The notes below the pieces were generated by a model. It worked only from the letters and a program-made list of their open reading frames with translations. It made no database searches and had not been told where the DNA came from. A program made the translations under genes and the position numbers. From contig NC_079238.1 of assembly GCF_027921745.1 (NCBI RefSeq), positions 62,001-126,000 on the forward strand: 64,000 nt of DNA, read 5' to 3'. Shown here one piece after another: positions 19,968-64,000 of the stretch (positions are counted from its first letter, which is position 1; each line of letters begins with the position of its first letter). Source of the DNA: Schizosaccharomyces osmophilus. Its lineage: Eukaryota > Ascomycota > Schizosaccharomycetes > Schizosaccharomycetales > Schizosaccharomycetaceae.

Positions 19968-20783
19968 TTACAGGATTGTAGAAAAAGTCGTGACAAGGGC
20001 CAAGAAAATGTATAGGAACTTGCCGGCTCTGATGAAGGATGCGGAGGATTTGTGGCTTACAGGAGTCTTTAGATTTGGTGCTTTATAAGGTAAGTTGGAA
20101 CGCTTCCTGCTTGCGTTCACTTGCGCATTTAAAGACCTTAAGAAGTTGTCTTCATTATATATTTCTGGATCAAGAAATTGCCAAAATTCATCCTGTAGAT
20201 TTTGGTCATTTTGCCATAGTTCATCTTTCTGGTACCTCAATTGACAGGTTTGATTACCGTCGCAAGGATAAAGATAGTAATCGTATTTCGAAAGTGTTCC
20301 GTTCGCATCTAATCCATAAGTGTAATTGGAATATGCATATGTCATATTTGGGGTCAGCATATAGTAAGATTGGGAGATTCCTGAGGCGTTGATATGTTTA
20401 TGAGAAGAATCTCTCATAAATACGGAAACAGTCGCATTGAAATTTGGTATCTTGGTACATTTCCGAGCAGTACCTTTGTAGCATTTTTTCCTCTTTGCAT
20501 TAATCTGTGTGCATGTAATACTGGAACGATTGTAGGGAACTGTCAAAATAGAGCCGGCATAATCTGTAGACAAGCTGAAACTCTCTCCGCCAGCCGTAGG
20601 AGGATTCATAATGAACGAAACATTCCCACGACAATTTTTACTATACGGGAACTTCTGGACGTAGAACGGGTAATCGACCGTTTCCACATTGTTAACGTTG
20701 TCATTTGTGGATAAAAACTTGGAAGGAATAGCCCATCCCAACGAAAACCAGACAAAGTAGATCAAGAAAATGGAAGTCTTCAT
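19968..20783 (-). CDS. Secreted glycoprotein with signal peptide and probable GPI anchor, function unknown
   Basis: I do not recognise this 271-residue protein. Residues 1-18 form a typical signal peptide ending near GWA. The mature part has nine N-glycosylation sequons (NVS, NRS, NAT, NAS, NMT, NYT, NGT, NQT, NAS) and six cysteines that could form three disulfides. A polar region follows, then a Ser/Ala-rich SSASF cleavage-like site and a hydrophobic tail of about 17 residues ending at the last amino acid, which fits GPI attachment or a single membrane anchor. It is Tyr- and Asn-rich and lacks Ser/Thr-rich repeats of flocculins. It is most likely a cell-surface or cell-wall protein. The frame is intact from the ATG at 20783. 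It could be lineage-specific. Confidence 0.75.
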   Translation of the reverse strand: MKTSIFLIYFVWFSLGWAIPSKFLSTNDNVNNVETVDYPFYVQKFPYSKNCRGNVSFIMNPPTAGGESFSLSTDYAGSILTVPYNRSSITCTQINAKRKKCYKGTARKCTKIPNFNATVSVFMRDSSHKHINASGISQSYYMLTPNMTYAYSNYTYGLDANGTLSKYDYYLYPCDGNQTCQLRYQKDELWQNDQNLQDEFWQFLDPEIYNEDNFLRSLNAQVNASRKRSNLPYKAPNLKTPVSHKSSASFIRAGKFLYIFLALVTTFSTIL

Positions 20784-22368
20784 TTTCTGTTTTTGTTTAT
20801 TATATTAAGAGCGACACAAGTCAACGTCTAGTAGAAATCTCTAATCTTCGTTACAGAATGCAACGGAGCTTGGTGGTTTCAGCGTCCACTAACTGACAGT
20901 ATTTATGTATGTTGTTAATAAAACCAGGCACACCGTACTTTTCGTTCTCACTCGCCGACGAAGTGAAAGAGCTGAGCTGAGACGAAGCTTTCTGCTGTTT
21001 CCAACAAATGAATTATTTCGCTTTTAAGAGTCGTACAACTATTAACGGTCACATTAGTATCGTAAGTGACTATTTAAGGGATGAACTCCGCTTAATTTCC
21101 GGCTTCCAGTTCAGTGGAAGTAGTAGTGCAAGGCATATTCCGATCGCTAGTTGATAACGCAAATTTTTCCAAACGTCTATACATAGTTGTATCAAAAGAC
21201 GTTGACAAGATTACTGTTCAGATCCCTAGATATATCCATTTTCATTTCTTAAACAAAGAGATCTGATATTGATTGACACCTTTTTTTCATAGTCAATCCA
21301 TCCCATTTGAGGATTATTGACATATTTTTTCTTGCATAGTCTTTCATAGAAAAATAAATTGGGTTTTAATCATTCTGTATGATGTGTCTTGTCTTGTTTT
21401 TCTTGCTGACGAAGGGTATGGCTTGCTCTTTCTGAAAAGCGAACACAAGCACATTTCGCTTTGCTATATCAGGAAATCCATAGGCGTGCTAATGAATGCG
21501 ACTACTAGAAATAATAAAGGATGAGTTTTTTTTTTCGGTGGGTAATTTTGCAAAGAAAAAGACATAATTGGACAAATGGTCGGTTTTAAGGATAGATAGT
21601 AAATGCCATTATCATTTCTCAAATGTTTTATGAATGTCCTTGGAAACAACGGAAGAATTGAAGCTTTTATATTCAAAATACACGCTCCTCAAGCACACCC
21701 ATTTGGATGAAGCTACTATTGAAACGAGCTGAGCTTCAAGTAGCTTCGGAAGCGTATGTCAAAATAATGATCAATATTTGGCGATCAATAGAAAACCTCC
21801 AGGTAGGGTTTTCTTTGCCGAACAGCAATTTCAAATACGTCAATCCCACACGGTTCATTTTTGTGCGTGTTGCTGCACCAAGCAAGCTATGCGTGACAAT
21901 AAGCAAATTCATATTTATGCCTGTATGAAGTTCTCTATGTAGAAACACCTTCTGATGGACACCAGAGTTTCCCTCAGTTTCATCCTTTATAATCAAAACT
22001 GCCGTTCCATTAAAAAAGGAATGAAAATTCTAGCCACTTTTACTACAATCTAAAACTATTTGGACTGAAATACTTATACCTGAAACTTCAAAAAAAAAGA
22101 AAAAAAATAAAAAAAAAACCATGTCCTCCTTACCCAAACTATGTCAATAATCATGTATCAGCGCCTTTACTGTATTCTCGTGAATCGTACTACGTACAAC
22201 AATTACAACCCAACGTTAGAGCTATAGTGTGTCATTAAGACAACTAGTTAGTGGATTCATTCATATAACATATTCAGATGATTTCGATCGCATAACGTGT
22301 TTATAATTTTAAATTCTCGTAACAAATGTATCATCATTAAACATAAATATCGTAGTTGTTTCCAGCGT
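20784..22368. other. 1.6-kb intergenic region
   Basis: No supported gene. A 48-codon ORF from the ATG at 21008 and overlapping open stretches on both strands at 21707-21996 show no family features. A small inverted repeat CTTCCA/TGGAAG occurs near 21103-21120. A/T-rich tracts lie at about 22088-22120. Confidence 0.45.
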
Positions 22369-22800
22369 TTAATTAATAGTAATTTGCTTTTTGGAGCGAG
22401 ATTCCTCAATCTTGGGCAAGACAACGCTTAAAATACCGTGGTTGAATTGAGCTTCAATACGATCGGCATCTACCTTGTTTGGAATGGTGATTGTTCGGGA
22501 GAAGGAACCAAAGCGACGTTCCGACCATCTTTGGTTTCCCTTGTCGCTTTCACTCTTGCGCTCATTCACAGATTCACCAGAAATGGTAAGTTTTCCTTCG
22601 TCGTAATGAACTTGTACGTCTTGCTTTTTGACACCAGGAAGTTCTACATCCACTTCGACGGTATCTTTGCCTTCGTGAACATCAATGGCAGGTGACAAGT
22701 CACCAACACGATTCTGGCGTTGGACACGAGGAGAATAACTCAAAAAGTCAGAAAGACCGTCTTGAAATGGGTATAAATCGAAGAAAGGTTGAAGAGACAT
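22369..22800 (-). CDS. hsp16: Small heat shock protein Hsp16 (Hsp20/alpha-crystallin family)
   Basis: A 143-residue small heat shock chaperone nearly collinear with S. pombe Hsp16. It would form oligomers that hold unfolding proteins during heat stress. The N-terminal MSLQPFFDLYPF opens the hydrophobic arm. The alpha-crystallin domain spans about residues 37-135, including SPAIDVHEGKDTVEVDVELP and a GVKKQDVQVHYDEGKLTISG core. The conserved NQRWSERRFGSFSRTITIP and the family-typical GILSVVLPK follow. It ends in KKQITIN, which carries the C-terminal I-x-I type anchor. A TATA-like element (minus strand TATAAG) lies near 22840. The start is the ATG at 22800. Confidence 0.97.
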   Translation of the reverse strand: MSLQPFFDLYPFQDGLSDFLSYSPRVQRQNRVGDLSPAIDVHEGKDTVEVDVELPGVKKQDVQVHYDEGKLTISGESVNERKSESDKGNQRWSERRFGSFSRTITIPNKVDADRIEAQFNHGILSVVLPKIEESRSKKQITIN

Positions 22801-23715
22801 TGTAAATAGCGCTTGCTGATTTCAAATAACAATCAAAGGATCCTTATATGCTTTTTCTTTTTTGTCAATGTTGTTGAACTGCCTCTATTGCACTCTAATT
22901 TATACTTGAACACAAGGATGGGTCGATCATTTCTTAAGAGCCCTAGTACTTTCTAGATGCTGCTGGCCTGGCCACTTGGCCACCACCAGGATTCCACGAA
23001 TTTCCGTGCAATTCATTCATCGCTCCTGTCATTTTTTAGTTTTTTTTTTCAATCTGAATAAGAAAAAGGAATTTTCTTTGCTTTTGTTTGCTTCTTTTTT
23101 CCATGAATCCTTTTGTTTACTACTACAGCTTCCCTCGTCATTCTCGATACCTCTAGAAAAATCATCTATTCCTCTTTTGTATGATGAAAAGTAACGAACG
23201 TTCTCGCATATTCCAAAATATAAAATTTCATGTTCTTTGCACAATACAGCCTTAGTAGCCTTGACAAAATTGACAAGAAACAAGCAATAAATGATAGATC
23301 AATATTTATAGGGCTTTGAGTGTACGTGGTGGTTGGTATCCACTATTGTTGCAGTCAATGAAAACAATGTCAATTGTAAACTCGTAAAAGGTACAAATTC
23401 AAACATATAAATGTGGCATTAAAGAATTATGGATGAAAAAAATTTAACTCCCAAGTTGATTATCTTTTGGTTAATTTGCTTGTTATTTGGATTATGCTCA
23501 GGCAACTACAGCTAGTGTCCATTTTCTATAAATCCATGGCTTGCAAATACAAAAAATTATATTAATAAAAGATAGAAAACTTTTATTCATAACTCTCATA
23601 ACACTTGTATCATTATATTTTTCCTTAGTTCATGGACTAGTTGGTTTGAAAGCTTGATTATGCTGGTAATTCAAGGACCGGAACCATCAAAGAAAGCGGA
23701 AAATAAAGAAATTCA
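22801..23715. other. Intergenic (hsp16 promoter and downstream)
   Basis: The first 150-200 bases are the hsp16 promoter. Partial TTC/GAA heat-shock-element-like blocks occur near 22952 and 22990, but none is a clean three-block element. Beyond that I see no gene; open stretches at 22976-23283 on both strands lack protein features. Confidence 0.45.
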
Positions 23716-24264
23716 TCAAGGCCACTTTCTCAACAAATCTCTCAAAGTGTCAATAGGTGTTGCAAAAAGTCCGACGATTGTTTCAAATGGGGGTTTGTTC
23801 GGAGCCGATGGATGACTGTAAGTAGGTACTAGCATCTTTGTTCTCTCGAAAGTCTTGGCTAAATGATGAGACTTTTCAGCTCCCATTTCATTTTCAAGTT
23901 GAGGATATTCAACATTTTCCTCCTCTTCAATATGCTTCTGAAGATGGATCATGATAGTATCCAGCGTCGGAACGAACTCTTGCTCGGCTGGCTTCATTGA
24001 CTGCAACTTGTATAGGTGTTCCTTTATTAATTGATGCTCTTTTCGATTCTTTTCCGCCATCGCATGTCCAGATTCCCCAAGGTATTTAGTGAGTTTAGGA
24101 TAAACGACTATTTCCTCTCCTACTAAGTATCGGGCCAGCTCCCATACAAATTGATTTCGCCAGCGTATTGCGCTGTCAGCATCCTTTGATGATCTTATAT
24201 AATTGTAATAATTCTGCAATTCTGTATGATCGTTGAAAACAACCTTTGATATCGTTGTAGACAT
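23716..24264 (-). CDS. Hemerythrin-like (HHE) cation-binding protein
   Basis: A 182-residue protein with a hemerythrin/HHE four-helix fold, probably binding non-heme iron through His and Glu ligands. Likely ligands lie in FNDHTELQNYY (N-terminal helix), LVGEEIVVYPKL, RKEHQLIKEHL, and HLQKHIEEEENVEYPQL, the order usual for fungal HHE proteins. S. pombe carries a similar subtelomeric HHE-domain gene. A conserved-looking C-terminal tail contains YSHPSAPNKPP. The open frame begins at a TTG (24276), but the first ATG is at 24264. The role is not established; oxygen, NO or iron handling are the family options. It converges on the M-factor side of the map without overlap. Confidence 0.88.
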   Translation of the reverse strand: MSTTISKVVFNDHTELQNYYNYIRSSKDADSAIRWRNQFVWELARYLVGEEIVVYPKLTKYLGESGHAMAEKNRKEHQLIKEHLYKLQSMKPAEQEFVPTLDTIMIHLQKHIEEEENVEYPQLENEMGAEKSHHLAKTFERTKMLVPTYSHPSAPNKPPFETIVGLFATPIDTLRDLLRKWP

Positions 24265-25097
24265 ATTGATCGTCAAGCCGTTTTCCCGCTCTTTTTAAAT
24301 TTTGGTAATAGGTATTAGAGGGTCTGTTTAGCTTCTAAGCAGGAAACTAAATCTACTACGATGTGCTATAGTTAGGTTGACATTAGCACATGCTCATGAT
24401 TTCTATTAATTAAGTCACGTCTGGTTTTCTTTCGAAATTATCAATATGATATACAAGCTGACGTCACTTTTATGTAACTATTATAGGTTCATTTCGCGTA
24501 TGTTACTTTTAGGAGGTATCAAGGACTCACATTGAAAATAGGATAGTACTAGCGCGTATATTCTTACCCGCTACGTAAACAAATAAACAATAACGAAAAC
24601 AAAAACAAAAAATATATACTGAGATTATTCTCTTTGGTATTAACGAATCGAAATCTTCATTAACCGAAGCAACTTCAATATGATAGCGTATTTGACATGA
24701 TTAAGTTTGCTCTGCAGATGAAAAAAGTAGAAATACTTGTAACTTTTGGTTTTTTAAGAAAGTTTAGTGAAGTGTAGGCACGTCAAATCTATCTTACAAT
24801 TATACTAGGAAATTTTTCTTTCCAATAATCAAAATTAAGAAAACAGCACAAGTTGTGAGCTCAAAAGAAATTCGAAATGTTCACTAACTTTTACGACAAT
24901 AGTACCTCATTATTCTTTGATATATCTCAGCCATGTAAGCTAAAAAATAAAATGGAATCAAAAAATTTGGATTTGAGGTGATATATATGAAAGTTTTGTA
25001 ATTATAAGTATTAAAATTAAAATTAAATTGGCAAAATTATAAAGCAAAAACGTAGCCTCATAAAAGGCATAAAAAAGTCATAAATGCTGACTTGCTC
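24265..25097. other. Intergenic, AT-rich
   Basis: Promoter of the hemerythrin-like gene and 3' region of M-factor gene copy 1. Contains an A-rich stretch near 24580-24620. No gene seen. Confidence 0.55.
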
Positions 25098-25278
25098 CTA
25101 AGCGATGACACTAAAGAAAGGAAAGTTAGTACAGAATGGTATTGAAGAAGAAATTGCCATACCACATTCCAGGAGGTTTGGGTTGGTACCACTGAGCGGC
25201 GCTAACGGTAACAGCAGGCTTGGAAGGTGCGTTGTTGGCAAGAGTAGAGTTGTTGGAAGTGTTGTTCATAGCGTCCAT
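25098..25278 (-). CDS. mfm: M-factor mating-pheromone precursor, copy 1 (two exons)
   Basis: A 42-residue precursor encoded by exons 25278-25163 and 25110-25098, joined across a 52-base intron. It starts MDAMNNTSNNS and ends PPGMCVIA. The C-terminal CVIA is a farnesylation CaaX box, and the predicted mature pheromone is the nonapeptide YQPKPPGMC with a farnesylated, methylated cysteine. It parallels S. pombe M-factor, YTPKVPYMC, from a precursor of 41-44 residues also ending in CVIA. The leader is rich in Asn, Ser and Ala as in the S. pombe family. M cells secrete M-factor through the Mam1 ABC transporter, and P cells sense it. The intron splits the Cys codon, so no single reading frame shows the gene. 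It lies in a 0.58-kb duplication shared with copy 2. Confidence 0.9.
25111..25162 (-). other. Intron of M-factor gene copy 1
   Basis: Begins GTATGG at 25162, has a perfect TACTAAC branch site (complement of 25125-25131) and ends CTTTAG at 25111. Length is 52 bases. Splicing joins TG to T, making the prenylated Cys codon; unspliced RNA would instead read on to a stop without a CaaX box. Confidence 0.88.
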
Positions 25279-25407
25279 TGTTGTTGTTTGTTGAAAGGTA
25301 GGAGAGCAAAAAAAAAAGGTGTCAAAAAGTCAAAAAGAGAAAAGAGTAGTGATCAAAGAGATGAAAACCAAGCTTTGGATGATGATTTCTTGTTCCATTT
25401 CAGCCTG

Positions 25408-25415
25408 TATTTATA
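25408..25415 (-). promoter_or_regulatory. TATA box of M-factor copy 1
   Basis: TATAAATA on the minus strand, about 130 bases before the ATG; conserved in copy 2 (62174-62181). Confidence 0.6.
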
Positions 25416-25453
25416 CCTGAAATCAAGACTTCCGAACGAACCGACCATGTCCT

Positions 25454-25463
25454 CCCTTTGTTC
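25454..25463 (+). promoter_or_regulatory. TR-box-like element in the M-factor promoter
   Basis: CCCTTTGTTC matches 8 of 10 positions of the Ste11 TR-box TTCTTTGTTY. Two 9-of-10 matches follow farther upstream, on the minus strand of 25788-25797 and 25867-25876, outside the duplicated block. Ste11 drives mating genes including mfm genes in S. pombe; binding here is inferred. Confidence 0.45.
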
Positions 25464-25676
25464 AAGGTCCCATTCTTCGCTACGAAATTTTCCATTGTCC
25501 CAAAATTGGCTATCGCTTTGGTCCAAGATGAAGAGTCACGAACAATGTGGAGATGACAAGAAGAATCAAAACTTCATCAAAGATACATTGCATTTTTAGA
25601 TCCGTCGCGGAGGGGTTTGTGTACGACTTGTAATCGCTATTCGACTCGGACAATAGATGTTCAAACAAAACGAATA

Positions 25677-26585
25677 AAAGAGCGGGACTTACGGTAATAA
25701 ACAGGAGATAGAAAGAAAAATAAAAACAAGCGGTCTCACTCTTATAAGAGTTTCCGATTGTGTGGTAATCGTTTCAATGCTGTTGAGAAACAAAGGAAAG
25801 GACCGGTTTTTTTTTCGCTCGAACATCTGGTGTATCTTAACATTGTGCCGATTTGTTCGCTTTTTGAAACAAAGAGGTAAAAAGCCGACAAATGATGACA
25901 AAAGCAAGGCATTCCTTATGGGGTAGTTTCATCCACTTTTGTCTGAACTAAAGTAGTCATTTTCAGTTAACAGATGTATATAAAGCAAAAAAACGGTTTT
26001 CAGTGGAACTAAAATCAAAGCAAGAAAGCGTCTTTCAACCGAAACCCATCAACGTGAAGAGCTGATCTCCTATGTTCCCATCAATCGATTTTCCAGCAAC
26101 AGTTTCAAGTGTTGATGAATAATTCTAGGTTACAAATCTTCATTAATCAAATTTAAAGTTGATTCTAGTCTACTATTCGAATTTGCATTTGACACCTTAA
26201 CCGTACTAAGACTGGAATATTTCACGACTACTACACAGACACACTTTTTCACTTGAACGAACGGATGGAACCATTTTCTAAATTACTCCGGTGGATGAAT
26301 AATAGGCAACGACCTTTTAATTACTGAAATTTTTTGTCGAATAGAGTACTTCTTACCGCTTGGAGGACCGAGAAAAGTCTCGTATAAAACTGCTACTGAC
26401 AAACATAAGTAAGTATTAGTCTGTTTACATCTGCTATTTATTAGATGAAGTGCTCTACAGGTCTTATAACTCACGATTGCAAGCGTTCAAAATCTGTTAC
26501 GTAAGGTCTGCATAACTAGCGAAAAAAATCTTTTGCTATATAAACCACTAAAGAACATTTTTTTAGCTTAAACTTTTATATCAAA
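25677..26585. other. Intergenic
   Basis: Distal promoter of M-factor copy 1 and promoter of the esterase gene. Contains the two stronger TR-box-like sequences. Open stretches on the minus strand (25689-25907, 26283-26474) are unrecognised. Confidence 0.45.
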
Positions 26586-27745
26586 ATGATGTCTTTTCCA
26601 TTCTTTTTGCGGTTGATTACCCTTCCGTTTGTATGGATTTGGACAGCTATTTTGTATGTAACCGTGGGGACAAGATTTCGAGAACAAGAAGCATTTCAAA
26701 AAAGCTTTTCTCTGAATTTGTTTGCTATGAGCTATACGCATCTAAGTAGTGGGGCGACGTTGAAAGATTTTAAATACATCGATGGGGGAAAGAGTTTGTT
26801 TGGTATACTAGAAAAAAAGGAGAACAAATTCAATCCTTCTAAAAGTCTTCCTAGCTATGGAGAAGTATTCACTCGAAAAGATACTGAAAAAAATATCCCC
26901 GATTCCGCATGGCTTGCTAAACATCCTCAAGAAATGGGTAAAGAGGACTCCGTTATTGTCTATCTTCATGGCGGAATGTTGTGCCATTCTATTTCACCGG
27001 TTCAGGTTTTTGCGTTTAGTAATATGTATACTTTGCTTCAAAAAAAACATCAAAGCCTCCTTCTATATTGCTTATTGATTATTCTTTGGTACCTGAAGGA
27101 ACGACCTATCCAACACCAACTTTAGAATGCTTTAATGTTTATGACAAGTTGGTTTCCCTTGGATACAAGAAAATACTTCTAGTCGGTGATTCTGCTGGTG
27201 GTTATCTCTCGTTGTCATTACTTCACCAATTAAGCGAAAGGTCCAAAACAAGCAAAGTAGTCTGGCCTCATGGTGTAGCGTTAGTTTCGCCTTGGTTGGA
27301 TTTGACCAGTGCCAAAAAAATAAAGTCCTATATAAGTAACGCTGATAAAGATGTGATTACCTTTGAAAATTTGCAAAGATTTGGAAAAGCATATACGCGA
27401 CGAAATGAGAAATTATACTCCCTGCCTCTGACGAATATAAACTTGAATTCTGATGATTTTTGGTCAGAACTTCCACCTTTTAAAAAAGGCAACTTTTTGA
27501 TAGTGGTTGGTAAGGACGAGATTTTAAGAGACAGTATTTTGGAATGGTGCCTCGAAAACTCATCGCTAGGTAAAAAGTTTCCTGAAAGGATAATGATCGA
27601 AAACAAGGGCATTCATGACGGTTTGTTCGTTACAGAAACTTCTATGCTCTTGAGGAAATATATAACTTTTGAGGAATGGTCTCAAAAGTTTGGAGTGAAT
27701 GCACTGTATAATTTTATAAAAGAAATGGACGATAACCTAAGTTAA
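26586..27745 (+). pseudogene. Say1-like steryl acetyl hydrolase / esterase, one frameshift
   Basis: Encodes an alpha/beta-hydrolase of the hormone-sensitive-lipase-like group, resembling Say1 sterol deacetylase relatives in fungi. An N-terminal membrane anchor (about residues 5-27) suggests an ER-lumen enzyme. The oxyanion motif appears as YLHGGM, the nucleophile as GDSAGG, the acid as VVGKDE and the histidine as GIHDG. The frame changes once, in an A8 run at 27040-27047: upstream protein ends its homologous part at YTLLQKK and downstream resumes as TSKPPSILLIDYSLVPEG in another frame. One extra A would make a single frame of about 386 codons, the usual family length. It is therefore a very recent pseudogene, a sequencing error, or a slippage site. 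Confidence 0.85.
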
Positions 27746-28118
27746 ACATGATTTTATGATTTTTATCTTTAAAAAAATTTGTGTTTTCGGACTAGCGTCG
27801 TCAAATTTCCACATTAGTAACTGGAAATTGACTCTTGATATGCTGGTCTCCATATTTCGCTTCTAGTTTTTCTTCTGTACCTACTCTTACGATTTGGATG
27901 ATGTTAGATTTCGGTCACCTCAGGTAATGTGTAATGTGGGCAATTTACCAAGTTTCGGATTGATTTGAGATGGGCAAATAAACAATTTTTGATATAAATT
28001 TCAGCAATTGATTCGGCCTACAAACTTCACTTGTGAGTAAAATGACCTTAAACAATACCAAGAAAGTGCTGTTGGGTACCACTAGTTAGTATGGCCCTTT
28101 TTATTTTAAATGGCATGA
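27746..28118. other. Intergenic
   Basis: No coding potential recognised between the esterase and the small gene remnant. Confidence 0.5.
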
Positions 28119-28361
28119 AAACAGGAGCCTTTTTTTTCTGAAACGCTTGTTCCATACAAAGTATTCAAAAAAGCTGTGTACGAGGTACAAATAGTATCGG
28201 AGACAGGGCAGTGCATGTTTGATGATCTTTCCATGACGAATATGGCATTAGGAAAGTTGGAGAAGCAAGTTCTCGATGATAAGGATGATGACTTTTGGAC
28301 TTGCTTGAAAAATGCTAAAGCTGCTAAAGAGGTCAACCCTAACGAGTTAACTATTAATTAA
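28119..28361 (+). pseudogene. C-terminal remnant of an unidentified gene
   Basis: An 80-codon open stretch directly after an in-frame TGA reads like the end of a globular protein: ETLVPYKVFKKAVYEVQIVS, then MTNMALGKLEKQVLDDKDDD and a KEVNPNELTIN tail before TAA. It has no ATG upstream. Codon use and residue mix look coding, unlike neighbouring AT-rich DNA. I cannot name the family. A last exon of a spliced gene is the alternative, though no upstream exon was found. Confidence 0.4.
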
Positions 28362-30006
28362 AGTTGCATTTGCATAATAACGGAAAGTATTACTATGTTC
28401 TATTAAAATACGTCACTACGACCTCTGCATTAATTCATGGTCATTTCAATCTACCCTGGAACATAAATCTACTCAATGCAATCATTTTAGACTTAGAAAC
28501 ATAGTTGGAATATCTACTAAGAAAATGATTAGTATAACATAATAAAAAACTACCCGTCATAATTCGTCACGAACGAAACAAGCAACAAAACATATCTCTT
28601 GATTGACACCGGTTTACGGCTGCTACTCATCAAAAATGTTTTATTTGCCTGAGTTTTGCTGGCAAAATATGTAAACATTTGGAAGCCGTAAACTTATAGT
28701 TCTATTTTATTTTGATCCTTTTTAATGGTTGCTTATTGTATTTTTATAATTCGTAAACTTAGCATTCTCAGACAAATATAATAATTAACCCGCAACTTTG
28801 CAATCTTGAACCTTTGTAAATCTTACTATTTTGTAACTTTTTTTTTTCTGTAAATCTTTCTTTAAATTTGTAAATGAAGCTTTCTACGGGTAAATATATT
28901 TAGCTACGCTTTCATCCTCATCCTCATCTTTATCCTTATTTTTATTCTTGAGTAGAAATTAATATACAAATTTAAAAAGGAATTATACAAAATTGGATAC
29001 TTGAAGTACTATTAGAATGAATAGTAATAGGTTCCAGGAATCTGGTCCGCTAGGTAAGTTGTAAGGACAATTTATTTAGCTAGATCAGTCAAATCTTCTA
29101 ATCTAATGATTTGAACGTTCAACTAGAGGTATACAAATTTCTAAAATAGATAGCATTGTTCCTTCTGATAAATTTCTTTTTTGTTTCTTCGTTATAAACT
29201 TCCGTTGTTTACAAATTGTAATAAAGGGATTCTTTTGTATTTTTTCTACCGCAATCTGGAATTGTATGAAGACTTTAGTACTATCGTGTATGGATTATGA
29301 CACTACAAGTCAATATCATTAATTTGCAGTCAATGATCGCAAAGGTCAATTGCTACTTAAAGGAATACCAAAATAATCACAATCTTATATTCAAAGTTTC
29401 AACAACAAATATTGAAGAAAAAATCATTCGAATAGCTCTTTTTCGTTTTCTAAAACGGCTCCTGGATAACTGTCTGTTATATCAAAAATAGAGAACAAAG
29501 CTTACACAACGCGAATCGTAAGATTCCTGTAATCAACTATAGTTCTACTGTTCGTTTACAAAAACATATACCGAACAAGGCGAAATTGCACGGCTCCTTT
29601 ACTCACTATCAGTGATCCTTTCATCGTGCCTTACAATAAGAGGTGGCAAACATATGAAACAATTCGAGACGTAAAAGTCGCAGCTGAGAGAAAAAAATTT
29701 ATAAATTTCTGATGAATAGGGTGAAAGTATTATGTTTTCTGTGAGTGAGGCGCCCTGTTTACATATACGACTTTGACGGTTTGAATTTAGAACCTAAACA
29801 AAAAAAGTAGTCGTAGGCGAATGGACATGATGTTCGCTGATCAGAGACCACGGATGTCAATAGAATAAGAGTTTTTGCCCTACAAATCAGGCGAATGCTT
29901 ACATATCATCATAACTTAGTCTGAATGTTTTATAACGTCATTTGTATTTACGAAATAAATAAACAGGACGTACATAGCAGAGTCTCAAAGATTCTGCACC
30001 TAAAAT
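28362..30006. other. 1.6-kb intergenic region
   Basis: AT-rich, with a short imperfect CATCCT/CTTTATC-type repeat near 28911-28948. No gene or RNA recognised. The last 200 bases should be the promoter of the MDR reductase. Confidence 0.5.
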
Positions 30007-37699: not shown

Positions 37700-39181
37700 C
37701 TATGATATAGCTTGTAATTCTTTTTCATCAAATTTAAAATAGTCTTTTAGAGTTGAAGCGAACCTTTGCAGTCCCATTTCAAATTTATCAACAGGGGCAA
37801 TGGAATAGGCAAACCGAAAAAAAATTTGATCGTTTTTATCGGGATAAGCCATAAATAACTGTCCACAAATGGGTTTCACTCCCTTTTGCAAAAGTGCCTC
37901 GAAGATTTCCAATTCAATATCAGAAACAGACTTGTTTTTACTGTCAAAAAGATAACGATCTTTATTAATCTCAACCCATAAGAACAGACCAGCCTTTGGA
38001 GCTTTATAAGAGCATATACTTTTTGGAAGGTGTTTATTTGCGGATTCAAGCAAAGCATTTCGGCGGATAGTGTAAGTACGTTGTAACTCTTGCAACCACA
38101 GGAAGAATCCTTCTTGTTTCCAATGATTTAAGATGGCAAACAAAGTGACTTGAGAGATACCTGAAGGGCTTTCCGTCGATACCTCCGCAGCTCGTGTAAT
38201 GCGGTCAATGAAAAGTTGGTTACCAGTAATCCATCCTAATCGGCTTCCTGGAGCAATCAGTTTTGAAAAAGAATCAATTCGCAAAACCCGACCTTCCACG
38301 TCAAGTTTCAAAAAGGATGGTACTAGTTTCTTTACGAACGAGGACAAAACAGTAGAGTTTTGCATACTATCTTGCTTTTGGTTTCCTTCTTCCAAAGTAC
38401 TTCCATTATAACTGTCCATTTGCAAAAAGTAATACGGCTCATCTTCAATAATGATGATGTCGTATTTTTGAGCTAATACCATGATTTTTTTTCTCCGATC
38501 AATGGATAAAGTGCTGCCAGTTGGGTTTTGGCCAGTTGGAATCGTATACAATATACGAGGACGTGACCCTTTTGAAGGGTCCCAATTTTCCATAATTTCT
38601 TGTAAGCTTTCGGGAAGCATGCCCTCTCCATCCATGTCAATCGAAATGAAATTTACCCCAAGAGGAGACATTGCAGTTATAGCAGCAGGGTATGTATATT
38701 TCTCTATAAGAACGGGATCTCCATAGTTAATAAGTAGCCTCAGACAGTATTCGAGACCGATTGTGTTTCCGTTCGTCAATTTAATTTCCCATTCCTTGTA
38801 AGGTGGAGAATGGGCTAGTTTGACATGCTCCTTTATGAAGTTGACTAGCTCTGGAATACCTTGGCATTGTCCATATTGTAAAGCTCCCTCAAAATCTAAC
38901 CCATTTTCATTCTCATCTCTTCCTAAGTCATATGAGACATCAGCTTCTTTAGGGTAACTATTTCCGGCGCCCTCATGAAAGCAGCCGAGCTCTGGGAAAC
39001 GCACTGAAAGCCTTCGAAGAGCAAATTTACTAGGATGGGGAATCCCACCAGAAAACGATATTAAATCGATATCTGTGTTGCACTTTATGCGATCCAACAT
39101 TTGAAAGGGTCCTTTTCCACGAGCTCTGGCTTCTCGTGACAAATGATGTTGAAACTTGTCATTAAAAATAGAAGGAGACAT
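37700..39181 (-). CDS. Aromatic / 2-aminoadipate aminotransferase (class I, Aro8-like)
   Basis: A 493-residue PLP-dependent aminotransferase of the Aro8/KAT-II group that would interconvert aromatic amino acids or 2-aminoadipate and their 2-oxoacids. The N-terminal FSGGIPHPSKFALRRLSV loop and LQYGQCQGIPELVNFIKEH are characteristic. NTIGLEYCL, YTIPTGQNPTGSTLS and IIIEDEPYYFLQMD mark the cofactor pocket. The Schiff-base lysine is Lys307 in RIDSFSKLIAPGSRLGW. The C-terminal RFAYSIAPVDKFEMGLQR fits the family. The ATG at 39181 is the natural start. A rearranged relic of a related gene lies at 46.4-46.75 kb. Confidence 0.93.
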   Translation of the reverse strand: MSPSIFNDKFQHHLSREARARGKGPFQMLDRIKCNTDIDLISFSGGIPHPSKFALRRLSVRFPELGCFHEGAGNSYPKEADVSYDLGRDENENGLDFEGALQYGQCQGIPELVNFIKEHVKLAHSPPYKEWEIKLTNGNTIGLEYCLRLLINYGDPVLIEKYTYPAAITAMSPLGVNFISIDMDGEGMLPESLQEIMENWDPSKGSRPRILYTIPTGQNPTGSTLSIDRRKKIMVLAQKYDIIIIEDEPYYFLQMDSYNGSTLEEGNQKQDSMQNSTVLSSFVKKLVPSFLKLDVEGRVLRIDSFSKLIAPGSRLGWITGNQLFIDRITRAAEVSTESPSGISQVTLFAILNHWKQEGFFLWLQELQRTYTIRRNALLESANKHLPKSICSYKAPKAGLFLWVEINKDRYLFDSKNKSVSDIELEIFEALLQKGVKPICGQLFMAYPDKNDQIFFRFAYSIAPVDKFEMGLQRFASTLKDYFKFDEKELQAIS

Positions 39182-46409: not shown

Positions 46410-46750
46410 ACATTTCATATAGTTTAGAAAGAGACAGGAATTGATAAGGGTGTAGAGTTTGGGAAAATGCCAAGGTATTCCGGAATTAGTTAACTTCATA
46501 AAGGAGCAAACTCAAACTAGCCCATTCTCTACCTTGCAGGGAATGGGAGATTAAATAGATAGAAGGTTAAAAATAATCTCGTGTACTGTTTCAGGTTGCT
46601 CGTTAATTATGGGGATTCTGTTCTTACGAATATCTGGAAAATGCACTGAAAACTTTTGAATATGAAATTTACTTGGAAACGATACAAGATGATAATTGTG
46701 TTGCACCTGATTTAAACCATTAAAGAAAAAAAAGGTGCCCTGTACGCAAT
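46410..46750. pseudogene. Rearranged relic of an Aro8-like aminotransferase
   Basis: Two pieces match the aminotransferase gene at 37.7-39.2 kb but in opposite orientations. On plus, 46410-46552 corresponds to the stretch coding SYDLGRDEN through GQCQGIPELVNFIKEH and PPYKEWEIK (about residues 85-135). On minus, about 46730-46600 corresponds to the N-terminal CNTDIDLISFSGG through PSKFALRRLSVRFPEL (about residues 34-65), now reading HNYHLVSF, PSKF, FSVHFPDI. The nucleotide matches are clear while reading frames are broken. The N-terminal part is therefore inverted relative to what follows it. Only a few hundred bases survive, so this is an old fragment of a paralogue or of a former copy. Confidence 0.75.
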
Positions 46751-57898: not shown

Positions 57899-58501
57899 TT
57901 AATACTTTGGTTTTGTCTTTGCAGCATCTGCAACTCGAACAGGACGAATTAAATCTTTAAACCATTTTGTTTCCAATTCCAATTCATAGATCCTATGTTC
58001 CAATTGCTTGATTTTCTTTTCGTATTCCTGGACCGTCTGTTCGAGGTATTGCTCTTTGGCTTTTCTTCGTTGTCGAAATCGAGCACTCGCCAAAGTGTTT
58101 CTTCTACGCCGTTCTTTGTCTTCGACAACACCGACCATTCCTTCAAAGGGACTTGTCATTGACGATTCGTTGCCAGAAAAGTCCGCCGTAGGAGCGTTTT
58201 CTTCTCCCGCACTTTCTTTTGCATGCTTTTGCTCTAGTTCTAGCTCTAGGGCGTTCATGGGTGGTAAGTCATCATCATTCGTGTTGGGGGGAAACGTCGT
58301 TGCATGCCCATTTCTGCCATAGGCGATTTGGAACCCATTCTCCTGAGCAGACTTGATGTATTGCAACGTGGAATATTCCTTGGAATCTAAATATTCTCGA
58401 TACGACTTGTTACTCTTTGGTGACACTGGTTGCTCTTGAGGAATGTACTCGGTGGCATTAGGAATTACTGCTCGAGTCGGTAGTGTAGAATTCGATTCCA
58501 T
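57899..58501 (-). CDS. bZIP transcription factor, CYS3/Zip1/Met4-like
   Basis: A 200-residue nuclear DNA-binding protein. The basic region spans residues 129-150 (KERRRRNTLASARFRQRRKA, then KE), containing the N-x-x-A-S-A-R-F-R signature typical of CYS3/Zip1-type bZIPs. The leucine zipper follows to about residue 185, with heptad positions in YLEQTVQEYEKKIKQLEHRI and YELELETKWFKDLI. The N-terminal 125 residues are disordered, rich in Ser, Pro and acidic residues, and probably activate transcription. In Neurospora CYS3, and through S. pombe Zip1 and budding-yeast Met4, this group controls sulfur acquisition. S. pombe Zip1 is longer, so this is likely a paralogue. The start is the ATG at 58501. 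Confidence 0.85.
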   Translation of the reverse strand: MESNSTLPTRAVIPNATEYIPQEQPVSPKSNKSYREYLDSKEYSTLQYIKSAQENGFQIAYGRNGHATTFPPNTNDDDLPPMNALELELEQKHAKESAGEENAPTADFSGNESSMTSPFEGMVGVVEDKERRRRNTLASARFRQRRKAKEQYLEQTVQEYEKKIKQLEHRIYELELETKWFKDLIRPVRVADAAKTKPKY

Positions 58502-59561
58502 ACTTCATCGATAATTGAATTAGGATTCACAAAACCCTCGCTTGCTTGAAAATCTTGTCAATTTGTTGGGAAAAGAAGAAATTAATACTACCAACTTTTC
58601 CATTTCATTGACAAATTCACAATACCTAGTTCATTAAAGTTTGAATCGAGGATAGCAACAACTATCAACAACGATGCGGGTTTGTCTTGTTTTTTTCCCC
58701 AAGCTTGTACCTCATTTTACGTGATCTTTGCAAAAATTGAGTCAGCCTTGTTCTTGACTTACGAGCGATGATCCATCGTTGTACACTTACTACTAACCAA
58801 GCCTTTGGATTCGTACATATAGCTACTAATCACGCAAACGCCCTCGTTCCTCTTCTTAGTGTCACTGTCACTGTCACTGTCACTATTCGCCAAGAAATTC
58901 TCGTTCCCCTTGTATGATATTAAACGCTTCAAATTAATAATATAATGCAAACAAGTGTTTCCTAATTCACTGTTGGACATCAAGCAACAGCATCACAACC
59001 TCTTGGTAACCCAAGCTACTACAGGTAGCTGCAGGCAAACTTTGAAAGTTCTCTAGCAAACTACGACAGGTACTGCATCCTATTCATAAAAACATTAGAT
59101 AAAATAGAAATGCTACTCATTTTGTAACAAGGATTTCCGCCTACTTTTTAATACAAAACTCAGCGGAAAGATCCCCAAGAGATTCACTTTTTTTATTTTT
59201 TATTTTATTTTATTTTTATTTTTGTTCATTCATCGAAAGACCGCCTGCGACCGCCGAATACAAGATGAAGCCATGATAACACTACGATGCATCACAGAAA
59301 ATTTCATTGGCGTTACCAACACTTACAAGTCGTTTCGACTACGAAAATTATATTAAAGCGTTAATACAATATATTGATAGCCACAAGCATCTATTACGTG
59401 ATAGAAGGAATTTGGATGCAAAATTTTCAATTGGGTGAAGATCTGGCATCATGGGCGAGATACTGATAAATACAAAATTGAACGAGTCCCCCGGTTTGTG
59501 AACAGAACCGTGGAGTTAACCAAAACCTACGTTAATCGTATCTTGGTGTCTTTGAAGAGAC
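58502..59561. other. 1.1-kb divergent intergenic region with small repeat-containing ORF
   Basis: Promoters of the bZIP gene and the amino-acid permease. A 73-codon minus-strand ORF (ATG at 58980, stop at 58759) contains four tandem Ser-Asp units encoded by a 6-bp repeat. It may be a leader ORF of the bZIP transcript or chance. A T/A-rich tract lies at 59192-59224. Confidence 0.45.
58858..58884. repeat. Hexanucleotide microsatellite (GTCACT)n
   Basis: Four tandem units of GTCACT, inside the 73-codon minus-strand ORF where they encode a Ser-Asp repeat. Confidence 0.85.
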
Positions 59562-61250
59562 ATGGAATCCGCCACCTCATGGAATGATAAAGACTTAGAG
59601 TCAAAGGTCGTTGATCCCGAAAAGACGCTTCCAACGCTGGAGCGCCGGGTGTCGGCGAGCACTCAGTCGAGCGAACCTGGAGTCGAAACTGACTATGGCG
59701 CTGATTCGGGATTGAAACGAAAATTAAGCTCTCGACACTTGTATATGATTTCGCTGGGTACCGCCATTGGTACAGCTCTTTGGTTAGGTTCAGGTGCTAA
59801 TCTCACAACTGCTGGACCAGTTGGTATGTGGATTGGATTTTGGATTGCTGCTTCCATTGCTTGGGCTTTGATGCAATCCGTCGGTGAACTCACCGTCATG
59901 TATCCTGTTCCTTCTGCTTTTCCGCGTTGGAGTCAGAATCTGGTCGATCACTCCATCGGGATTTCCCATGGTTGGGCCTTTTGGTTGTTGTACACTTTGA
60001 GTATTCCAACAGAACTCGCCGGTCTCGTTACCGTAATGCAATTTTGGACCGATAAAGTGCCACCAGCGGGTTGGATTTCTATTTTCCTCTTCATCTTGGT
60101 CCTTTTAAATGCTTTCCCCGTCCGTGTTTACGCGGAAACCGAAAGTATCATGTCCTTCATCAAGTTTGCGTGGATTTTTGTCATCATCATCACTTCCATT
60201 ATTATTTCGGCTGGTGGTGCTCCCAAAGGTGATAGTATCGGTTTCCGATATTGGCGCCAAGCTCCCTTCACTCATGGCTTCAAGGGTTTTTTGAATGTCA
60301 TGCCCAATGCCGTCTTCTCCATGTCAGGTATCGAATTGGTCGGTATCGCTGCCGCAGAGGCAAAAAATCCCAAAAAGTCTGTTCCCAAGTCCGTTGGTTC
60401 TATTTGGCTTCGTCTTGGTTTGTTTTATATCGTCGGTATCTTGATGGTCACCCTCATTATTTCACCTTATTCCCCCGATATTTTTGGCGGAAAAGGTGCT
60501 AACGCTTCCCCTTTTGTGATTGCCTTCCGTAATGCCGGTATTCCTGGTTTGAGTCATGCCATGAATGCCATCATTCTCATTTCTGTCTTTTCTGCTGCCA
60601 ATTCCGAAGTTTATACGGCTCCAAGAATCCTCGTTGGTCTTGCTGAAGTGAAAATGGCACCCAAATGGTTTTTACGTTGCGACCGACAAGGTCGACCCCT
60701 CTATGGTTTTGCATTCACAATTTTGATTTCCGGTGGTTTAGCCTATTTAAATGTAAATCAAACTGGTTCCACCGTTTTCCAATGGTTTGAAAGTTTGGTG
60801 TCCCTTTGCGTGTTGTATTCATGGAGTTGCATCTTTTTGGCTCACCTTCGTTTCCGGAAAGCATGGAAAGCTCAAGGCTTTTCAGCAAATCAGCTTCCCT
60901 GGAAGTCCAAATTTTACCCTTATAGTGCAATTTGGGGGATTTCTTGGTGTATTTTGATTTGTATTGTCGAGTTTTATCTCGCTGTCTGGCCGCTTGGTCA
61001 ACGAAGCAGTGCCAAGAATTTCTTTGCTACTTACTTGTCCATCGTCCTTATCTTAATTTTTTATATCGTAGCGAAGATTTATTACCGTGGACCTTTTTGG
61101 AAGAAACCTTCCTCGGTAGATTTAAATCATGGTCGAAGGTTTTATTCGAACCGAGCAACAAACAATGACAATGACAAAGACGAAGATGAAGATGAACTCT
61201 ATACTTTCGCCAAGTCTACAATAGCAAAGGTTATCCCCAAGAAAAGCTGA
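59562..61250 (+). CDS. Amino-acid permease (YAT/AAP family)
   Basis: A 562-residue, 12-helix plasma-membrane amino-acid:H+ symporter. After a polar N-terminus of about 50 residues, the transport core begins LKRKLSSRHLYMISLGTAIG, followed by MQSVGELTVMYPVPSAF, AFWLLYTLSIPTELAGLV, IGFRYWRQAPF and AAAEAKNPKKSVPKSV. It differs from the permease at 42-43.7 kb in many helices, so the two are separate family members rather than a recent duplicate. The C-terminus has an unusual run of Asp, Asn, Lys and Glu. The codon use is richer in C-ending codons than most neighbours, which may reflect high expression. Frame intact from the ATG at 59562. Substrate unknown. Confidence 0.92.
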   Translation: MESATSWNDKDLESKVVDPEKTLPTLERRVSASTQSSEPGVETDYGADSGLKRKLSSRHLYMISLGTAIGTALWLGSGANLTTAGPVGMWIGFWIAASIAWALMQSVGELTVMYPVPSAFPRWSQNLVDHSIGISHGWAFWLLYTLSIPTELAGLVTVMQFWTDKVPPAGWISIFLFILVLLNAFPVRVYAETESIMSFIKFAWIFVIIITSIIISAGGAPKGDSIGFRYWRQAPFTHGFKGFLNVMPNAVFSMSGIELVGIAAAEAKNPKKSVPKSVGSIWLRLGLFYIVGILMVTLIISPYSPDIFGGKGANASPFVIAFRNAGIPGLSHAMNAIILISVFSAANSEVYTAPRILVGLAEVKMAPKWFLRCDRQGRPLYGFAFTILISGGLAYLNVNQTGSTVFQWFESLVSLCVLYSWSCIFLAHLRFRKAWKAQGFSANQLPWKSKFYPYSAIWGISWCILICIVEFYLAVWPLGQRSSAKNFFATYLSIVLILIFYIVAKIYYRGPFWKKPSSVDLNHGRRFYSNRATNNDNDKDEDEDELYTFAKSTIAKVIPKKS

Positions 61251-61861
61251 TGAAGCGAATAAAATAAAAATAAAAAAATAAGGAAAGCGTTTGACGTCGC
61301 AGGCAGACGTAGGGATTCGTTTTCCTTTCTTCTCCTTTATTGTTTTATCGAATTTGTTTTTGGATTTTTTGGATATAATACGTGTTTAATGTTATACATG
61401 AGCTTGCTCTTTCTCTTCTTCAACAGAATTGTTACTAAATATTGAATGAATAATGCACGTACAAGAAATGAGCACAATAAAATATAAATAAAATGGAATT
61501 GCAGATATGACACATTGATTATCTAGTGCAGAATGTATTAAAATCTCCAATGAAGCTGGATGAATGAAATTCAAAATGTGTCAGTCACCCACGACACACA
61601 CTGACCACAGTCCATAGTTAGGTGGAGAATTCTGCGGTTCACGTCTTACCGTTCTGCAGTAGCTACTTTTTTTTTCTCAATTCAATAGTGAAAAGAAACT
61701 TTGTTATTCAAACTCAGTTATAAATTTAAATTAAGGGAAATTACTATCAAATACTTTAGGCCACCTTGAATCCGAGGAAAAATTCATGAGCAAGCGTCTT
61801 AAAGAACTATTGTAGTTTTCAAAAAAGGACAAATAAATATCGAATAATCAATTCATGTCGC
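61251..61861. other. Convergent intergenic region
   Basis: 3' regions of the permease and of M-factor copy 2. The sequence immediately after the copy 2 stop codon has no resemblance to that after copy 1. No gene recognised. Confidence 0.55.
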
Positions 61862-62042
61862 TTAAGCGATGACACTAAAGAAAGGAAAGTTAGTACAGAA
61901 TGGTATTGAAGAAGAAATTGCCATACCACATTCCAGGAGGTTTGGGTTGGTACCACTGAGCGGCGCTAACGGTAACAGCAGGCTTGGAAGGTGCGTTGTT
62001 GGCAAGAGTAGAGTTGTTGGAAGTGTTGTTCATAGCGTCCAT
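61862..62042 (-). CDS. mfm: M-factor mating-pheromone precursor, copy 2 (two exons)
   Basis: Encodes the same 42-residue precursor as copy 1 from exons 62042-61927 and 61874-61862. The predicted mature nonapeptide is YQPKPPGMC, farnesylated through the CVIA box. The stop codon is TAA, whereas copy 1 uses TAG; otherwise coding sequence and intron are identical. Having several genes for one M-factor is known in S. pombe (mfm1, mfm2, mfm3). The gene lies on the same strand as copy 1, 36.8 kb away, with its own TATA box (62174-62181) and TR-box-like element (62220-62229). Confidence 0.9.
61875..61926 (-). other. Intron of M-factor gene copy 2
   Basis: 52 bases, sequence-identical to the copy 1 intron (GTATGG, TACTAAC, CTTTAG), interrupting the prenylated Cys codon. 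Confidence 0.88.
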
Positions 62043-62173
62043 TGTTGTTGTTTGTTGAAAGGTAGGAGAGCAAAAAAAAAAAAGGTGTCAAAAAGTCAAA
62101 AAGAGAAAAGAGTAGTGATCAAAGAGATGAAAACCAAGCTTTGGATGATGATTTCTTGTTCCATTTCAGCCTG

Positions 62174-62229
62174 TATTTATACCTGAAATCAAGACTTCCG
62201 AACGAACCGACCATGTCCTCCCTTTGTTC
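62174..62229. promoter_or_regulatory. TATA box and TR-box-like element of M-factor copy 2
   Basis: TATAAATA on the minus strand (62174-62181) and CCCTTTGTTC on plus (62220-62229), the same spacing from the ATG as in copy 1 apart from the A-run difference. Confidence 0.5.
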
Positions 62230-62443
62230 AAGGTCCCATTATTCGCTACGAAATTTTCCATTGTCCCAAAATTGGCTATCGCTTTGGTCCAAGATGAAGA
62301 GTCACGAACAATGTGGAGATGGCAAGAAGAATCAAAACTTCATCAAAGATACAATGCTTTTTTAGATCCGTCGCGGAGGGGTTTGTTTACGACTTGTAAT
62401 CGCCATACGACTCGGACAATAGATGTTCAAAACAAAATGAATA

Positions 62444-64000
62444 GCTTCAAGCACATCAAAGAAATAATCTACATACGATGCATGGTGTTGGGTTCTGATA
62501 AACAGTTGTTCAGCTCTTCTTTCGTGATCCATTTATGATCGATATTTTGATGCGAGAATTGATGGCAAGAAACACCTTTCTGCTGATTTCTTGGTAAATT
62601 AACCAAGCAACACTTTACATCTCTTATGGAAATGAACAAATACCAGCGATATTATACCATTCGTCAAAACTTGTTCTATTACGACAAAGCCTCAAGGATT
62701 TACAACTGTAGTTTCTCAGATTATTAGTGGCAAGTTACTGATCAACGGATTATCAGTAAAATACCTCAGGACATTGATATGAATTACCTTGGTAATAAAG
62801 CAAAGCATTTCCCGAATTCTATAATTGCACTTGATAGTCAGTGGCATTTGGGCTGACTCAAAAGTAAATAACGAAGCAGTATTCAACTAACTAATATAGC
62901 GCTTTTTAAGACAAGGTATATTGGCTCATTATGATACTTGCAATAAATGGATAACTTTGTAACCCCAAAAGAAGCAAATACCTTTTTGTTTTCGGATCTT
63001 TTGCAACTTCAGCCAAGTTTGTCTATCAAAAGAACAAACCTTTACTAGATTTTGTTTTAAGAAACATTTTTTTATTTTCTAAAATTATTTATTTCAAATC
63101 GAAGAATAATGTTTCAATTCAGTTGCTAATCCATCCGTCCATCTTGCTTTACCATAGGTCGTCTTGACAAAATCTTTGGCTACCAAAAGCACCTTCAATA
63201 TGAAGATTTTCGCATAAACTGTAGTCTTATACAAAAGTGAATAGTATGCCTTATTACGGGTAAAAAAGGTCGTAAGGAATGACAGTTGCAATAATTTTGA
63301 AGCATTATTTTCATGAAAGGAGCCGTTTTTCGTAAGTAACAAAAACAAGTCAATTTTAAAGTAAATAATACCTTGATTTCTTGCTATATACCTATTTTTA
63401 ACTTACCCATGCAATATTACTGATGTATTATGGATTACTGTCGATTTAGATACACAAAATACCACACTGGGCACAATATAGCTTAACCTTGAATCACTTT
63501 TTTCTCGTTATATGTACTTTTCGTTTGAAGCATGTTTCACATTACCTTGAGTAAATGCCTCCATTCAATTGCCCTCTACTATTTAATTCCTATTGCTGCA
63601 TGTTCAAGTAAAGCAGAGAATCATAATGCGAAGAAATAAATGTGATAGGTGCAGGCAGATGATTATGTTGTAGGAGGTTAGTGGTATTTATTATTTGTGT
63701 ACGGGTATTTATAGATGACAACAGAGCGATGTTTTTTATGTTTTAGCAATAAATTATTGCAAGATTTTATTTATTTCTACATTTACCAACAATGTTGTTT
63801 CTGTTGTCTTACTTTATGTATTTATTTTTAATCTTTATATTTCATTGCTTTGTCTAAACAGGAACTCAAATAAATGACTGGCGTAGCTTATTTGCATTTT
63901 GTTACGCTTGTGTTATATGGACCTTTTGTATGAAGCCCTTTAGTCTAGTCTTTCAATGAATGATTTGTATGCTCAGGTAAACGATATTAACTTCTTCTGT
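62444..64000. other. End of window, no supported gene
   Basis: 1.6 kb of AT-rich sequence. An 84-codon minus-strand open stretch (63094-63348) lacks an ATG at its start; its end, GKARWTDGLATELKHYSSI, looks slightly protein-like, but I recognise no family. Possibly the edge of a gene relic. Confidence 0.4.

Follow-up and report, generated by a model that had tools for sequence, protein, structure and literature searches.

The closest described relatives of the locus studied here are the M-factor genes of other fission yeasts. In Schizosaccharomyces pombe, M-factor is YTPKVPYMC, and this single mature peptide was found in all 151 strains (PMC6342294). S. octosporus makes YQPKPPAMC-farnesyl-OCH3 from six genes, So-mfm1 to So-mfm6 (PMC6342294). 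Within each species several M-factor genes encode a single mature peptide, three genes in S. pombe and six in S. octosporus (PMC6342294). In S. cryophilus, five M-factor genes encode an identical mature peptide (PMC6444559), the sequence of which is absent from the text of that paper.

Recognition of M-factor by Map3 is described as stringent, and S. pombe making only the S. octosporus peptide (So-M-factor) was sterile (PMC6342294). A sensitive S. pombe strain elongated with 100 nM Sp-M-factor and did not elongate with So-M-factor, for which slight elongation was seen at 1,000 nM (PMC6342294). In S. pombe M-factor, T2Q partly rescued changes at positions 5 and 7, with Y7A among the variants named (PMC13099959). 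T2Q combined with V5P reached about 70% of wild type, and several other double mutants reached 3-9% (PMC13099959). T2Q was proposed by those authors as an early change; the T2Q-rescue section of that paper makes no mention of Gly at position 7 (PMC13099959).

Gene structure and product

We analysed a 64,000-nt window of S. osmophilus contig NC_079238.1. We observed an M-factor gene (mfm copy 1) at positions 25098-25278 of the minus strand, with a 116-nt exon 1, a 52-nt intron and a 13-nt exon 2 (Table 1). A preliminary description had proposed a two-exon M-factor gene here, with junctions at 25163/25110, a 42-residue precursor ending GMCVIA and an intron inside the Cys codon. The coordinates, junctions and precursor were exact, and the Cys codon is indeed split after its second base (TG/T). 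GTATGG, TACTAAC and TTTAG are the intron signals expected from the fission-yeast consensus.

The spliced 42-residue precursor is MDAMNNTSNNSTLANNAPSKPAVTVSAAQWYQPKPPGMCVIA. It ends in ...YQPKPPGMCVIA, a CaaX box that would give the Cys-terminated nonapeptide YQPKPPGMC; we infer that the precursor is farnesylated and cut on the N-terminal side. Without splicing, the frame enters the intron (...GMWYGNFFFNTILY, then stop) and the CaaX end is lost. This unspliced continuation reads WYGNFFFNTILY and then meets a stop, so it takes splicing to form the CaaX end.

Table 1. Features of the two mfm copies in the window. Single positions mark where a promoter motif begins.
Feature	Position	Strand	Remarks
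mfm copy 1 exon 1	25163..25278	-	ATG to first 2 bases of Cys codon; Pfam PF03855 on spliced product
YQPKPPGM coding part of mfm copy 1 exon 1	25165-25188	-	
mfm copy 1 intron	25111..25162	-	52 nt; GTATGG donor, TACTAAC, TTTAG acceptor
mfm copy 1 exon 2	25098..25110	-	last Cys base, then V-I-A-stop TAG
copy 1 5' leader and promoter	25279..25676	-	common with copy 2
TATAAA	from 25415	-	-137 in copy 1; -139 in copy 2
imperfect Ste11 core AACAAAG	from 25462	-	-184 in copy 1; -186 in copy 2
M-box position AGAAT	from 25476	-	copy 2 has ATAAT
perfect ACAAT	from 25498	-	-220 in copy 1
mfm copy 2 exon 1	61927..62042	-	identical to copy 1
mfm copy 2 intron	61875..61926	-	identical to copy 1
mfm copy 2 exon 2	61862..61874	-	identical to copy 1 except stop TAA
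copy 2 5' leader and promoter	62043..62443	-	homologous to 25279-25676

We assessed family membership with hmmscan. The precursor matched the Pfam M-factor family PF03855 with E = 1.2e-15 and a score of 57.8 bits, above the curated cut-off of 25, and its residues 1-42 aligned to profile positions 1-43 of 43, the full length of the model. Searched against the PDB, the precursor returned three matches, all at chance level (best E = 2). We also scanned both strands for short two-exon open reading frames that carry GTANG/CTRAY/YAG signals and encode 25-75 residues finishing in a CaaX-like motif. The real window yielded one distinct peptide, the M-factor precursor. The same scan of 50 dinucleotide-preserving shuffles yielded a mean of 0.06 CaaX peptides (maximum 1), and a YxPKxPxMC end occurred in none of the 50.

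A second copy within a sharply bounded unit

A six-frame search for Y.PK.P.M found two sites in the window. The second belongs to another M-factor gene (mfm copy 2) at 61862-62042 on the minus strand, 36.8 kb from copy 1. Its precursor and intron are identical to those of copy 1, and the coding parts differ in the stop codon alone (TAG in copy 1, TAA in copy 2). The gene described at 25098-25278 is real, but it is not the only one: the window holds two redundant genes with identical precursors and one mature peptide.

The homology extends beyond the genes. BLASTN aligned 25099-25676 with 61863-62443 at 98.1% identity over 581 columns, a common unit of ~580 nt. This shared unit had an alignment score of 1104, which was reached by 0 of 200 shuffles. 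The 300-nt downstream flank scored 25 (reached by 24 of 200 shuffles) and the 300-nt upstream flank scored 17 (reached by 165 of 200). As the flanks align no better than shuffles, the homology is limited to the ~580-nt unit, with one boundary within the stop codon and the other roughly 400 nt before the ATG.

When the whole stop codon is counted, the copies differ in 12 columns, comprising nine substitutions and three gap columns. Eight of the nine substitutions are upstream, in the distal ~200 nt of the unit and no closer than 197 nt to the ATG, and the ninth is the stop-codon base. The stretch 25101-25474, 374 nt that take in the gene and its proximal promoter, has none (P about 2e-4 if substitutions were uniform, for an interval chosen after the data were seen). 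The intron and leader are likewise free of substitutions, with the leader differing by 2 nt in length in a T run.

Two open frames in the ATG-to-stop list run antisense to the M-factor genes, at 25105-25599 (+; 164 aa) and 61869-62186 (+; 105 aa). These frames reflect the duplicated unit on the opposite strand and probably do not represent genuine genes.

Promoter sequences of the two copies

In S. pombe, the imperfect Ste11 box AACAAAG is present in all M-specific genes except mam4, and the Ste11 box is preceded, at 14-26 bp (1.5 or 2.5 helical turns), by an M-box (PMC1693924). The corresponding block of S. pombe mfm1 is at -191 to -152 (PMC1693924, Table 3). We observed the imperfect Ste11 box in both copies, and its distance from the ATG resembles that in S. 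pombe (Table 1). The candidate M-box here is less canonical in sequence or spacing than that of S. pombe. The sequence 14 bp upstream of the Ste11 core is AGAATGGG in copy 1 and ATAATGGG in copy 2, so that one of the nine inter-copy substitutions hits the M-box position. A perfect ACAAT was absent from the S. pombe range of 14-26 bp; one is present 36 bp upstream of the Ste11 core. M-specific control of both mfm copies is likely, with the M-box as a candidate site.

Comparison with known M-factors

The mature peptide had been described as divergent, differing from YTPKVPYMC at three of nine residues. Compared to S. pombe this was confirmed: residues 2, 5 and 7 are T, V and Y there and Q, P and G here. 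Most of this divergence was already known, however, from S. octosporus YQPKPPAMC, which differs only at residue 7 (A7G). Eight of nine mature residues are the same in these two peptides, in a comparison confined to the mature part. The S. osmophilus genes share with S. pombe mfm1, mfm2 and mfm3 a nonapeptide ending in Cys, the presence of introns and the use of several genes for one mature peptide. The last of these also holds for S. octosporus and S. cryophilus.

That the gene is hidden, as had been suggested, is doubtful in general, given that a Pfam model exists and multiple genes have been reported from S. octosporus and S. cryophilus. The string YQPKPPGMC was not found in open PMC full text, a search that leaves figures, supplements and most subscription journals outside its scope. 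Open PMC literature likewise returned nothing for M-factor together with osmophilus, and the terms 'pheromone', 'M-factor' and 'mfm' do not occur in the main text of the genome paper on S. osmophilus. The gene pair is a new member of a well-known family, one residue from the nearest published relative found. What it usefully adds is a second copy that had been overlooked, a common unit with sharp limits and one more residue, the third, for position 7; the surprise is small.

Proposed function and alternative explanations

The gene structure, family membership, second copy and common promoter established here make it very probable that these are two redundant mfm-type M-factor precursor genes. 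Their pheromone would be closest to that of S. octosporus, with expression, processing, export and receptor as in S. pombe. Under this model, Mat1-Mc and Ste11 would switch both copies on in M cells, and splicing of the intron would create the CVIA farnesylation motif. By the S. pombe precedent, the 42-residue precursor would then yield YQPKPPGMC in farnesylated and methylated form. The ABC transporter Mam1 would export this peptide, and Map3 would sense it on P cells.

A short peptide with an exon 2 of 13 nt might be a chance reading frame with M-factor likeness. The PF03855 match (E = 1.2e-15) speaks strongly against this, as do the lack of the motif in all 50 shuffles and the occurrence of the gene twice in the window, and we regard coincidence as having practically no chance of being correct. 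Alternatively, one copy or both could be silent relics within the M-factor family, with the pheromone supplied from another locus. The case for activity is drawn from sequence, and loss among the S. pombe genes is reported to bring no marked defect (PMC6444559), so a single copy may be dispensable. Against this, the reading frames and introns of both copies are intact and identical, and all nine substitutions fall outside 25101-25474 (eight upstream, one in the stop codon). We consider silent relics very unlikely; the mfm pair is real, redundant and probably working.

How the copies came to be the same is less clear-cut. Because the intron is identical as well as the coding sequence, the data suggest either a recent duplication or ectopic gene conversion over the ~580-nt unit. 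A single recent duplication with no continuing gene conversion would account for 98% identity across the entire unit and for two sharp ends. It fits less well with the uneven substitutions (0 in the 374-nt stretch of 25101-25474 vs 8 in the distal ~200 nt), although some of this unevenness could stem from constraint on gene and promoter. We give duplication alone somewhat less than an even chance. Since the intron is retained in each gene, an origin through spliced mRNA is unlikely. A check for a mobile-element origin found 0 direct-repeat families in 20000-30000 and 58000-64000 (separate runs, seed 12, minimum length 25).

With similar reserve, at a little under an even chance, we propose that YQPKPPGMC is a distinct, species-specific M-factor of the octosporus group. 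Position 7 would be the site that changes repeatedly between species, being Tyr in S. pombe, Ala in S. octosporus and Gly in the present peptide, against a background of Gln2 and Pro5 held in common. Gene conversion, acting on the ~580-nt unit of gene plus promoter, would meanwhile keep the copies alike and allow a new pheromone to spread across the gene family. A third natural variant in which Gln2 and Pro5 are kept and residue 7 alone is altered fits the order in which T2Q comes early. The use of the peptide as a species marker, put forward in the preliminary description, is plausible because So-M-factor failed to support S. pombe mating. Ala7 and Gly7 offer a simple pair for asking whether one residue isolates close species, and the paired copies bear on the joint change of multi-copy pheromone genes.

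Other features of the window

Some further features of the window were noted. ARAGORN found no tRNA genes in the window, and there were no Rfam matches at gathering thresholds. An Hsp20 gene at 22369-22800 closely matches heat shock protein 16 (PDB 3w1z, E = 6.3e-65, best of 21 matches), which we take to be the S. pombe protein. Combined with the M-factor match, this assigns the window to Schizosaccharomyces, while Gly7 argues against an origin in S. pombe or in the reference genome of S. octosporus, where all six genes are said to encode Ala7. A gene at 26586-27745 (+) opens with a frame (26586-27125) that aligns with the beginning of the Pfam profile Say1_Mug180 (steryl acetyl hydrolase; positions 3-154 of 374). 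Judged by eye, the gene appears to continue in another frame at 27023-27745, through an intron, a frameshift or a sequence error. A 271-aa frame at 19968-20783 (-) is hydrophobic at both termini and matched nothing in Pfam at E 0.001; it is perhaps a surface protein.

Downstream of the enolase gene, 46462-46626 (+) is an inverted match to 38707-38872 (168 columns, 79% identical), within the aminotransferase gene 37700-39181 (-). Just two short protein fragments align with the aminotransferase, and the stretch looks like a decayed gene remnant. Many of the 19 non-mfm open reading frames scanned against Pfam, spanning 678-61250, had functions in transport or catabolism (MFS, amino acid permeases, OPT, sulfatase, TauD, CrcB). 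Such a combination could fit a location near the end of a chromosome.
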